The translations under genes and the position numbers were made by a program. DNA of 64,000 nucleotides from the NCBI GenBank assembly GCA_008729055.1, contig SDUX01000008.1, positions 1,550,001-1,614,000 on the forward strand. Direction: 5' to 3'. Origin of the DNA: Pyropia haitanensis (Eukaryota > Rhodophyta > Bangiophyceae > Bangiales > Bangiaceae). Shown here piece by piece: positions 1,961 to 4,826 of the stretch. The notes below the pieces were generated by a model. That model did no database searches. It had not been told where the DNA came from and was given only the letters and a program-made list of their open reading frames with translations. Within the stretch, counting starts at the first letter, position 1. Each line of letters begins with the position of its first letter.

Positions 1961-2578
1961 GGCCCGTGCCATAAGCCCCACACCAGCCAGCAAGCGCCCC
2001 GCCCTCCCCCCCAAACCCCATGCCCCCCATCCTCCGTGCCCCCCCACCGCCAACACGTAGACGGCAAAGCACACGTGGCGCGCCCGACGGCCGTGGCCGG
2101 CGAGCCAGGAGCGATGGTGGGCGCTCCAGACAAGGCCGCCGCCGGTGACGCGCGCCACCTTCACCACTGTCGCGGCCTCCGCCGCCGCGGCGACGACAAC
2201 GGCGGAGCCAGCCGTGCCAGGTCGCGTCGACCGGCGGCCGCGGCGGCCACCGCCGCCGTCGCGGCCGCCGCCTTCGCCGCCGGCGCCACCACTGCCGGCG
2301 CCCCCCCCCCCCCCCCGCCGCGGCGGGCGATCGCCACCATCACTCTCGTCCCCCGCTGCCACCGCCACGTTGGCTGCCGCAGCCACTACCAGCACCAGCA
2401 CCACTTGCAGCGGCTACCCCCCCCATCCCCAACCTCCCCCCTCCCCCCACCACTTCACCAGCTGAGTGCGGGGCGTTAAAAGGGAGGGTAGACGAGAGAC
2501 CGCGGCCCCTCCGCCACCGCCACCCGCACTCAAGCATCAGCTCCGCTCTCACAAGCAGCCGGCCCGCCCGAGCCACCG

Positions 2579-3787
2579 CGCAGTGCCTGCTAAACCGTCT
2601 CAAAAAAAACCTGCTTTTTCGGTTGCGGTGCCCCTTGCGGGCTTGCGTCGGATCTTGCTTTCACGCAAGCCAGTCTGCGGGACAAGCAAGATTTTTCTGT
2701 GGAGTCTGCTTGTTCCGCAAGTCAGCCATTCTTGCGCGACCCTTTGCGGAAATCTCCCACGCCGCGACGGTCAACGACCGTCGCAGCGTACCCAATCAGA
2801 GACCAGGACGGAACAGGTGTTCGAAGCCCTGGGCCGTCCTGGCTACCTGGACCAGCGCCGGGTTCTCGCTCTTCCGCTGAGACAGTAGCTGCTCGTTTAC
2901 CTGCAACAGCACCGCAGTCGAGCCGCACACCTCAAGGCGGAGTATTTCCACCTCCTGCCGCAGGCAATCAGGGTCCGGCTTCTACGCCTCAGTGGATGCC
3001 GCTTCCATGGCGATACCTACCGTCGAGAGCGAGGGGGAAGCGGAGGCGTGCTGAGGGAAGGGGGAGGCGGGAGAGGGAGCTACTATCGGCTGAAGCGAAG
3101 TTGACGGCGGGCACCATCCCCGCACAGCGCCACCGTTACCAGTTACCACAGCCTGCAGTGGCTGCCGCTCCGCAGCGCCCCAAAGAGCCGTCATCACTGC
3201 GACCCCCACGGACGAGAACGGGGGGAGAGCGGACGGGCGTGGGGGAGTGAAGGTAAGGGGGCTACCTGCGGGCAGAGAAGCGGTTGAGCGGAGTGGAGGG
3301 GGGGGGGGAGGAAGAGGGTGCCACCCCTTCGCGCTACGCCATCCGCCCAAGCCGGGTCGTCAAGCGCCTCGTCAAGGCGTCTCCCTCGACGTCACTTTTC
3401 TTACCACCGGGCCCCGCAGAGTGCGGGAGATTTTCGCCGCAATGGCCCATGCAGAGGCGACTCCGCAAGATGGTTTGCGGCGACCACAAGCCACCTTGCG
3501 GTCATTGCAAACGTCCCAAGGTGCGGATTGCATGGAGCCCTGCAGTGAAGCGTTTCGGTCCGTCGCCATCGGTGATTTTCTATGGCCAGACAGCTGAGCT
3601 CCATGCGCTTCTGTCCGTATGAGATGAACTCCGTCGATGGACCGAAAGGCACCCATGTAAATGAAAAACAAAAAAACTGAGAAAAATCGGGGCTCACACT
3701 GTCGAAACAGACGGTGACAACTGCTTGCGGGCCGGCCCAAGCAAAGGAAAAGCAAGAATTTTTTGAGACGGTTTAGCAGGCACTGCG
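2579..3787. mobile_element. Non-autonomous TIR DNA transposon, 1.2 kb, 3-bp TSD CCG
   Basis: The left end starts CGCAGTGCCTGCTAAACCGT and continues CTCAAAAAA. The right end is its exact inverse complement through about 29 bp, and similarity extends further inward through a CTTGCTTTT block. Direct CCG triplets flank the element at 2576-2578 and 3788-3790, consistent with a 3-bp target duplication. Short CTTGC/TTGCGG motifs recur near both ends, as subterminal transposase sites often do. No transposase-like frame is visible inside, so it would depend on a relative elsewhere. A 3-bp duplication fits CACTA or PIF/Harbinger superfamilies; the terminal bases do not decide between them. Confidence 0.85.
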
Positions 3788-3790
3788 CCG

Positions 3791-4081
3791 GCTACCCCGC
3801 CTCCCGAACAAAAACCCAACGCCCGTTCGCGGTGCCCGCGCCCCCGCCGTGGGTCGCTTCGTTCGTCAGTCAAGGCTTCCACTTGACGAATGTGCTCCTC
3901 TGCTGCGCCTCGCGAGATAGAATAAATCTTTCGCAAATCTTGGCTGCGCTTGGGGTCCGTGCAGGGGGCGAATGCGAGAGAACAGTAGCAACACAATTTT
4001 CCAAACTAGAAAAAAATGACGCAATTGCTTACATGCCAAGCAAGACGGTGCGATGCACGCAATCACAAGCATCACGCTACT
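3791..4081. other. Spacer between TIR element and tRNA gene
   Basis: Lower-GC spacer with no supported gene. A minus-strand frame from 3996 downward gives about 50 reasonably complex residues and then runs into the transposon end, so a truncated exon cannot be excluded. Confidence 0.4.
4010..4016 (-). terminator. Probable RNA polymerase III T-tract terminator
   Basis: A run of seven A on the + strand gives T7 on the minus strand, 65 nt downstream of the tRNA discriminator base. It is the first run of four or more T after the tRNA. Confidence 0.6.
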
Positions 4082-4165
4082 TAGCTTCAGGTAGTTTCTC
4101 CACGCAATTCGATCTACCGACCTCTGGGTTATGGGCCCAGCGCGCTACCACTGCGCTATGAAGCT
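4082..4165 (-). tRNA. Initiator tRNA-Met (CAU) with a 12-nt insertion in the T-loop
   Basis: Read on the minus strand from 4165 to 4082. The acceptor stem is AGCTTCA (4165-4159) with TGAAGCT (4089-4083) and discriminator A at 4082. The D stem is GCGC/GCGC. The anticodon arm is CTGGG-CCCATAA-CCCAG, giving anticodon CAT at 4133-4131. The T stem is GGTAG (4118-4114) with CTACC (4094-4090). All stems pair perfectly. Initiator hallmarks are A1:U72, three G:C pairs closing the anticodon stem, C33 as in animal initiators, and an AUCGAA-type T-loop. The T-loop is 19 nt (4113-4095) instead of 7, so removing 12 nt would restore AUCGAAA. No intron lies in the usual position 37/38. Ectopic D- and T-loop introns are known in the red alga Cyanidioschyzon merolae. 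The alternative is a pseudogene, but the intact stems argue against that. Confidence 0.9.
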
Positions 4166-4296
4166 GTTTTCTGGTGCACGCCGGGCATTCTGTAACAATC
4201 TCATACGTTCAACAACAATCCATCTGGAACACATACACGCAAGCCCTCACTGGCTTCATGACCTCCCATCACGCTGCATGACGCCACCTGACGTTA

Positions 4297-4823
4297 GGGC
4301 ACGTCCTGCAATGTGACCATCGCTCGATATTCGCCCATATTTGTGCCACGTGGCTCCGTTGGTCGCAGAACGGCGCGTCTTGCGTCTCGCAGCAATGTCG
4401 GATGACCAACGGGACGCGAAAACGGCCGTATGTGGCCAATATAGTTCGGTGTAGTTGTTTCAAGTCGTCAGTGCCACGTTTAGTTCTCGTTGGTCCTGCG
4501 ACTATCGGGGTGACCAAATCAACCCTGTTTGGTCATCCCGATAGTCGCAGACCATCCATTTTGGTCATACGGGACCCCCGCGGGACCTGAATCAGACGCG
4601 CCACGTGGCGTTTTTAACCACATTCTGTTCTCGTTGGCTCCTGGTTCGGAAAAGTAGCCCCGGTATCGGCTGCAACTACATTGCGTTTTTGACGCCCTCC
4701 CGTCATGCCCGATGGTGTCGCGACTATCCGTATAGTCCACCAATCAGAAGCCCCCACGTAAGCACACGTGGCATCCTTAAATGGTCATTTTAGACCGTTG
4801 GTCCCACATTGCAGGACGTGCCC
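4297..4823. mobile_element. PIF/Harbinger-like (Tourist-type) MITE, 527 bp, TSD TTA
   Basis: Terminal inverted repeats begin GGGCACGTCCTGCAATGTG at 4297 and end with the inverse complement at 4823. They are flanked by direct TTA triplets at 4294-4296 and 4824-4826. A TWA target duplication with GGG/GGC ends is the hallmark of PIF/Harbinger elements. The interior has no transposase frame and is less GC-rich than its surroundings. It carries a central hairpin, listed separately. The element lies about 130 bp upstream (5' side) of the initiator tRNA gene. Confidence 0.88.
4497..4549. repeat. Near-perfect 22-bp-arm hairpin inside the MITE
   Basis: The arm TGCGACTATCGGGGTGACCA at 4497 onward is mirrored by an arm ending at 4549 (TTTGGTCATCCCGATAGTCGC and one more base), with a 9-nt loop at 4519-4527 and one G:A mismatch. 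It sits close to the element's centre and would form a strong cruciform or RNA hairpin. Confidence 0.8.
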
Positions 4824-4826
4824 TTA

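Follow-up and report, generated by a model that had tools for sequence, protein, structure and literature searches.

The initiator tRNA-Met(CAT) gene (iMet) considered here is located on the minus strand at positions 4165–4082 of the window, by which we mean the whole 64,000-nt stretch of Pyropia haitanensis DNA that was analyzed. Its features, in window coordinates, are as follows.

4082..4165, minus strand: initiator tRNA-Met(CAT) gene, 84 nt with the insert and 72 nt without it
4108..4165, minus strand: 5′ exon, positions 1–59, from the acceptor to A59, identical in the paralogs L002 and L003
4096..4107, minus strand: T-loop insert TTGCGTGGAGAA, 12 nt, between positions 59 and 60 (59/60), in the register of the class as determined over 33 T-loop inserts
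4082..4095, minus strand: 3′ exon, from A60 to the discriminator base, as read from the sequence
4010..4016, minus strand: T7, the first run of at least four T residues (T4+) 3′ of the gene, at +66 nt, and the nearest candidate Pol III terminator

Pairing is complete in every stem of this gene. The acceptor is AGCTTCA/TGAAGCT (4165–4159/4089–4083) with the discriminator A4082, the D-arm is GCGC-AGTGGTA-GCGC, the anticodon arm is CTGGG-CCCATAA-CCCAG with CAT at 4133–4131, the variable region is AGGTC, and the T-stem is GGTAG/CTACC (4118–4114/4094–4090). The gene has the features of a eukaryotic iMet, namely a CAT cloverleaf, A1:U72, three G-C pairs in the anticodon stem and A54; the last three, together with A60, we take to be initiator marks. 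A54 is stated for iMet in the available section 4 of PMC3978253. The cloverleaf, the anticodon and the initiator marks bear out the original prediction of an initiator tRNA-Met at this position. The T-loop, ATCGAATTGCGTGGAGAAA (4113–4095), is 19 nt long, 12 nt longer than normal. Neither ARAGORN nor Rfam at the gathering threshold reported the gene in the window. ARAGORN missed all four interrupted iMet forms (4/4) and called tRNA-Met(CAT) when the insert was removed. The A-box in the 5′ exon is intact, as is the B-box up to position 59. With the B-box taken as positions 52–62, as given in the available part of PMC3978253, the insert splits the box after position 59 and leaves GATCGA (53–58) in place, so that the B-box is altered as had been proposed. 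The GC content of the window is 67–77% (8-kb steps). Elements with terminal inverted repeats lie on both flanks of the gene: one of ~1.2 kb (2578–3788), which carries 41-nt repeats (93% complementary) and resembles a DNA transposon or a large MITE, ends ~290 nt from the gene, and a MITE-like element of 529 bp (4296–4824) on the other flank has perfect 20-nt repeats and contains an inner 23-nt hairpin (4496–4550).

A DNA search of the 52.9-Mb assembly (136 contigs) with the focal gene found six places. Three exon words, taken from the anticodon arm (up to 2 mismatches), the T-arm (up to 3 mismatches) and the 5′ end (up to 3 mismatches), concurred on five full iMet genes and one relic. The four full genes other than the focal one, and the relic, are as follows.

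C10, start 3776227, plus strand: L002, iMet gene with a T-loop insert, located with the exon words
C10, start 3804378, minus strand: L003, iMet gene with a T-loop insert, located with the exon words
C7, starts 2751658 (plus strand) and 2752898 (minus strand): L004 and L005, an inverted pair of iMet genes with a D-loop insert, located with the exon words
C7: L006, iMet relic whose 5′ half is broken and whose T-loop carries 11 extra nt

The focal gene is not the sole iMet copy, a possibility on which its functional importance had been made to depend. The finding that the original prediction had named as counting against it, a second and intact iMet gene, did not emerge: no intron-free iMet gene was found in the assembly with the three exon words, and an iMet gene with an insert at 37/38 would still be matched by the 5′ or the T-arm word. 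At three mismatches, the 5′ word gave five extra matches in the genome; one of these (C2:1388529) was rejected as the sequence is not a tRNA, and none of the other four coincides with matches of the anticodon or T-arm words. Another locus, L042, was rejected as a chance match of the anticodon word.

The focal gene, L002 and L003, all on contig C10, share 72 of 72 exon bases, and each carries a different 12-nt insert at 59/60 (6, 4 and 4 of the 12 nt alike in pairwise comparison). The flanks of these three genes (300 nt per side) showed no mutual similarity in BLASTN at E 0.01. Since two further genes with 72/72 exon identity have a 12-nt insert of differing sequence at the identical point, a chance origin of the focal insert was rejected. 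In the two genes on contig C7 the T-loop is normal (ATCGAAA) and the 12 extra nt lie in the D-loop, at 20/21; the exons of this pair differ from those on C10 solely at 50:64, where G-C is replaced by A-U, a compensated change. The T-loop and D-loop forms each show the insertion site of the other intact. Exon order is normal in all five full genes, and a circularly permuted iMet gene was rejected because the 5′ exon precedes the 3′ exon in 5/5. A group I intron in a tRNA gene is hundreds of nucleotides long and has a catalytic core; this possibility was rejected for an insert of 12 nt in a window without any Rfam match at the gathering threshold. Identical tRNA genes occur as inverted pairs ~0.7–1.2 kb apart on C7 (L004/L005), C3 (L010/L011) and C11 (L022/L023), the isotypes represented being iMet, Thr(AGT) and Thr(CGT).

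Inserts were also surveyed in the other tRNA genes of the assembly. The Rfam model RF00005 gave 48 matches at E 0.001 and 63 at E 10, iMet being absent from them, and in this run 63 of 471 first-look candidates were scored. Two A-box/B-box pattern searches added loci along with many chance rows (47 in the control vs 75, and 7 vs 18). A parser that permits inserts at three sites (D-loop, 37/38 and 59/60) accepted 89 distinct tRNA genes, which are a sample rather than a census; three of them, located on the small contigs C76 and C83, are possibly organellar. The iMet genes are outside this set because the parser demands U33. Inserts were present in 49 of the 89 genes and absent from 40, and were distributed as 23 in the T-loop, 12 in the D-loop, 6 in the anticodon loop, 4 in anticodon and T-loops, 3 in D- and T-loops and 1 in D- and anticodon loops. 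Lys(TTT), Gln(CTG), Pro(TGG), Leu(TAA) and Ser(AGA) are among the isotypes represented by genes with two inserts. The lengths of inserts at 59/60 ranged from 10 to 44 nt over isotypes. Genes with the same exons differed in state: Lys(CTT) occurred with no insert, with a D-loop insert of 13, 17 or 23 nt, or with a 16-nt insert at 37/38; one Ser(AGA) gene had no insert, one had a D-loop insert and one had both anticodon and T-loop inserts; and Gly(GCC) and Asn(GTT) genes occurred with and without T-loop inserts. Presence and absence on the same exons was thus seen for Lys, Gly, Asn, Val(CAC) and Ser(AGA), and on near-identical exons for Cys, Gln(CTG) and Leu(CAG). As is characteristic of ectopic introns, the inserts lie between intact exons that are common to interrupted and uninterrupted paralogs, iMet itself being represented by interrupted copies only. 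In the six isotypes with at least two genes interrupted in the T-loop only, mean exon identity was 0.96–1.00 and mean insert identity was 0.39–0.60; shuffled inserts gave 0.36–0.49, and the real inserts exceeded the shuffles in five of the six. The idea that introns lie only immediately 3′ of the A-box and immediately 3′ of the first part of the B-box was dropped because the patterns and the parser required contiguous box words, which makes introns within the boxes invisible.

The tRNA-Asp(GTC) genes, which encode the usual sole decoder of GAU and GAC, were searched separately with up to 2 mismatches allowed. All 15 loci found matched exactly, and all 15 carry a T-loop insert of 10–15 nt. Their 5′ acceptor fits the 3′ acceptor in 8/15, is foreign in 6/15 and was not seen in 1/15. 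The six loci with a foreign 5′ acceptor (L067, L069 and L147 on C3; L129–L131 on C40 and C120) share a near-identical ATTAAAC or AATAAAC that cannot pair with the 3′ acceptor, and L129–L131 additionally have a D-loop insert. Among other loci, L054–L056 and L066 (Arg and Trp(CCA)) have a poor D-stem and ~12 extra nt in the D-loop, and L077, L088, L117 and L132, which contain A-box and B-box words without an accepted cloverleaf and are partly alike, are perhaps tRNA-derived repeats. The loci inspected included no clear gene for Phe, Tyr, His or elongator Met, and none for Ala(AGC); isotypes not found in this way may be more heavily interrupted, permuted or missed by the patterns.

We examined whether the inserts pair with their exons as a bulge-helix-bulge (BHB), in which i(n−5) to i(n−2) of the intron pair with a run of four exon bases whose last member lies two bases ahead of the 5′ site, leaving two 3-nt bulges. 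The set comprised 33 distinct T-loop inserts (30 from parsed genes and 3 from iMet) and 17 D-loop inserts (16 parsed and 1 iMet), with identical exon/intron pairs entered once and with loci rejected by the parser omitted, including L054–L056, L066 and those Asp loci whose 5′ acceptor is broken or was not seen. The exon ends of the D-loop inserts were taken from paralogs (six isotypes) or from the T-loop form (iMet) and were inferred for Leu(CAA), Ser(TGA) and Arg(TCG); L101, counted in this set, has G instead of A21. At 59/60, 109 of 132 helix positions pair, with at least three of four pairs in 28 of the 33 inserts and four of four in 15, an Asn insert among them. Shuffled inserts gave a mean of 58.6 (sd 5.2), none of 20,000 shuffles reached 109, and this register was the best of seven, the others reaching at most 75/132. 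At 20/21, 58 of 68 positions pair (at least three of four in 14/17), other registers reach at most 38/68, and again none of 20,000 shuffles reached 58. The pair C56-G is present in 31 and U55-A in 25 of the 33 T-loop inserts. Base 57 covaries with the intron, A57 being matched by U in 11/17 and G57 by C in 9/16 (Fisher p 0.005, U vs C). The shuffle and Fisher probabilities are optimistic, since the introns come from related, non-independent genes. As a class, the inserts at 59/60 and 20/21 thus show a 4-bp helix with two 3-nt bulges at the splice sites. At 37/38, 26 of 44 positions pair, 0 of 11 inserts have four of four, and 57 of 20,000 shuffles were as good; a canonical BHB is not claimed for these inserts, and their non-canonical pairing fits the bulge-helix-loop of most eukaryotic 37/38 introns.

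The focal insert is one of the 5/33 T-loop inserts with two or fewer helix pairs. Only G4100 (i8)-C56 and A4099 (i9)-U55 pair in the class register, i.e., 2/4, compared with 3/4 in L002, 3/4 in L003 and 4/4 in the D-loop insert of the C7 genes, whose perfect helix (AGUG/CACU) is present in the MFE fold of the full pre-tRNA. The statement that no canonical BHB can be drawn therefore holds for the focal copy but not for its class: 15 of the 33 T-loop inserts, as well as the D-loop insert of the C7 iMet genes, form all four pairs. The focal insert is accordingly filed by its homology to the paralogs and would form at most a relaxed motif, not a canonical BHB. Three registers had been considered possible for it; 59/60 was chosen because the helix pairing over the 33 T-loop inserts is far best there, which settles the point by analogy with the class, while the focal copy alone is still ambiguous. 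In MFE folds of the isolated T-arms, U55-C56 is predicted to pair with i10-i11 (focal) or with i12-A60 (L002 and L003), not in the class register. The T-arm of the full T-loop iMet pre-tRNAs was misfolded in all three predictions, and likewise in one insert-free form. For the three iMet forms with a T-loop insert, MFE folding is thus evidence against the class register.

Genes for all four subunits of the tRNA splicing endonuclease, the enzyme expected for BHB introns, were found in the genome. Candidates for Sen34 (C10:3831560; PF01974; best PDB matches to Sen34 chains, 1.3e-13), Sen2 (C9:5461457; PF01974; best PDB match to Sen2, 4.7e-7) and Sen54 (C9:1446483; PF12928, 52 bits) were accompanied by a Sen15 candidate (C4:3297966; PF09631). 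The last scored 17.3 bits alone and 30.4 bits with its neighbors in the genome search, and 30.2 bits when the stretch was compared on its own with PF09631 (cut-off, 22). No Sen15 chain was matched when it was compared with the PDB, and the only proteins matched were two from Pyropia vietnamensis and P. yezoensis (68–69% identical). Sen15 was reported as not found in Cyanidioschyzon merolae in the available parts of PMC4090602 and PMC4033280. This endonuclease is described as acting on substrates of the BHB form, and most eukaryotic 37/38 introns form a bulge-helix-loop whose removal needs the D-loop/T-loop elbow (PMC6379350, available text).

We consider it probable (about 0.84) that the 12 nt are a T-loop intron at 59/60 of iMet, belonging to a genome-wide class of short ectopic BHB introns that would be cut by the Sen endonuclease and ligated. 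This reading draws on the insert itself, its paralogs, the contrast between exons and inserts, the pairing statistics, the covariation and the Sen genes; from these we infer the transcription, cutting and ligation of the interrupted tRNA genes and the order of the steps. In the pre-tRNA, T-loop bases 54–57 would pair with i(n−5) to i(n−2), and the resulting helix would stack on the T-stem. Two 3-nt bulges would result (58, 59 | i1 and i(n−1), i(n) | 60), both would be cut by the Sen2/Sen34/Sen54/Sen15 endonuclease, and a ligase would rejoin the exons to give the T-loop AUCGAAA. The same BHB logic would apply to the D-loop inserts at 20/21. As D- and T-loop introns break the elbow, the BHB itself should be their signal. 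The feature is real and strongly supported as a class, and the proposal of a T-loop intron in a red algal iMet gene, of a kind known from Cyanidioschyzon, is supported by these comparisons. It is an already known kind, the ectopic BHB tRNA introns of red algae, to which P. haitanensis adds. What makes it notable is that every iMet gene found carries an insert, that paralogs with the same exons differ in state, and that a Sen15 gene is present.

Since 5/5 full iMet genes found are interrupted, translation initiation in P. haitanensis most likely depends on ectopic tRNA splicing. A wider proposal, to which we give even odds, is that with every iMet gene and Asp locus found interrupted at the elbow, Sen clears the D- and T-loop introns before the others and the introns are mobile among paralogs. 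D- and T-loop introns would then be cut by virtue of the BHB alone, as in archaea, and 37/38 introns later, measured from the restored elbow; introns may be gained, lost and moved fast among paralogs with the same exons, and Ser(AGA) would present three states side by side.

Whether the focal copy itself is active is a separate question. A T4+ run lies within 40 nt downstream of 79 of the 89 parsed genes (median position, 9), and the first such run is at +9 in the C7 pair, +8 in L002, +66 in the focal gene and +90 in L003. For 59 parsed genes, 140 nt or more of upstream sequence could be examined; the interval from −60 to −20 contained a TATA-like word (TATA, TAAA, TTAA or AATA) in 47 of them, compared with 12 and 7 for the two more distal 40-nt intervals. 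Such a word precedes L002 and the C7 genes in this interval but not the focal gene or L003. With a 2/4 helix and weak terminator and TATA signals, the focal copy, along with L003, looks the weakest iMet of the set. The focal copy may therefore be decaying or silent, its insert coming from a spliced T-loop intron and iMet being supplied by L002 and the C7 pair, a reading that concerns the focal locus only and overlaps with the ectopic-intron explanation. It would account for the smaller number of helix pairs (2/4, vs 3, 3 and 4 in L002, L003 and the C7 pair), for the distance of the first T4+ run (+66, vs +8 in L002 and +9 in the C7 pair) and for the missing TATA-like word, unlike 47/59 genes, L002 and C7; moreover, one clear iMet relic, L006, exists. 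It does not readily explain why 72 of 72 exon bases are shared with L002 and L003, which is unexpected of a long-dead gene, why the central pairs U55-A and C56-G have been kept, or why −60 to −20 has retained an AT content of 0.65. The perfect exons argue against long silence, and we regard decay or silence as a serious possibility that falls somewhat short of being probable, while leaning slightly towards a focal copy that is still spliced. The assertion that the focal locus must be functional does not follow, as there is no T-run close to the gene and no TATA-like word ahead of it; the functional requirement falls on the iMet gene set, not on this locus.

Three further explanations appear improbable. 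Were the 19-nt T-loop tolerated in the mature tRNA and the insert never removed, it would be natural for the T-loop inserts of all three iMet genes to be 12 nt long; however, inserts at 59/60 vary from 10 to 44 nt over isotypes, the same exons of other isotypes occur without an insert or with one elsewhere, the class of inserts shows pairing to the exon in a single, precise register, and a 19-nt T-loop is expected to disturb the D-loop/T-loop elbow. We judge this very unlikely. Hardly more probable is that an intron-free iMet gene is absent from the assembly and that the interrupted copies are dispensable. The assembly is in 136 contigs, with no figure stated for completeness, but the five full copies lie on large contigs and none is intron-free, and 15/15 Asp(GTC) loci found are interrupted too, so that more than one isotype would need to have lost exactly its intact copies. 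Removal of the inserts by a nuclease other than the Sen endonuclease would suit the 5/33 T-loop inserts, the focal one included, that lack a 3–4-bp helix, but all four Sen subunits are encoded, and the class shows in one register the BHB that is the described Sen substrate (PMC6379350, available text); such a nuclease seems very improbable.

If the ectopic-intron reading is correct, its implications extend beyond this locus. iMet is essential, and the eukaryotic endonuclease is thought to need the elbow for 37/38 introns (PMC6379350, available text). If all iMet genes are interrupted at the elbow, these introns must be recognized in another way and with Sen15 retained; the absence of Sen15 from C. 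merolae had been linked to ectopic introns (PMC4090602, available text). Isodecoder families with the same exons would make intron gain and loss traceable inside one genome and permit a test of the duplication route to permuted tRNA genes. Under the wider proposal, P. haitanensis would document, in a living organism, how ectopic introns are gained and the condition thought ancestral to permuted tRNA genes. In genomes of this type, essential genes can escape standard finders, as this iMet escaped ARAGORN and Rfam at the gathering threshold. Red algal genomes were scanned with tRNAscan-SE defaults in a codon-usage study whose available text mentions no ectopic introns (PMC10496412), and the word “tRNA” is absent from the main text of PMC7423979. 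Our searches of an open-access library found no report of ectopic tRNA introns in Bangiales or of an iMet T-loop intron.

The closest known system is that of C. merolae, where nuclear tRNA genes have ectopic and multiple BHB introns (PMC3978253, PMC4090602, PMC6379350, PMC9602550; after Soma 2007, 2013). These introns are in the T-, D- and anticodon arms, and the junctions of permuted genes are at 20/21, 37/38, 50/51 and 59/60 (PMC9602550, PMC3978253). Both organisms are red algae with short D-, anticodon- and T-arm introns, BHB or relaxed BHB motifs, several introns per gene and AT-rich TATA-like words upstream. For C. merolae tRNA-Ile(UAU), the anticodon intron is believed to be excised only after those of the D- and T-arms (PMC9602550). 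The C. merolae iMet gene is intron-free and permuted, with its junction at 50/51 (PMC3978253, table 1), and Sen15 was not found (PMC4090602, PMC4033280); P. haitanensis, by contrast, has a Sen15 gene and unpermuted iMet genes with inserts at 59/60 or 20/21. P. haitanensis is also probably multicellular, unlike C. merolae, and in further contrast its Ser(AGA)-type families mix intron-free, D-interrupted and anticodon-plus-T-interrupted copies. Permuted tRNA genes of type IV (59/60) and type I (20/21) use the same two junctions and BHB logic as the P. haitanensis inserts, whereas the exon order of P. haitanensis iMet is normal. The nucleomorph of Guillardia theta is of red algal origin. Its tRNA introns are likewise very short, at odd positions and in an algal nucleus (PMC4090602, PMC3978253; after Kawach 2005), but many have no defined BHB (PMC3978253), whereas most P. 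haitanensis D- and T-loop inserts have one. Archaeal BHB introns outside 37/38 likewise occur at T-loop and D-loop sites, and Thermofilum pendens iMet is permuted with its junction at 59/60 and an intron at 37/38 (PMC3978253, table 1, as available). Unlike archaea, P. haitanensis presents such introns in a eukaryotic nucleus with a four-subunit enzyme.
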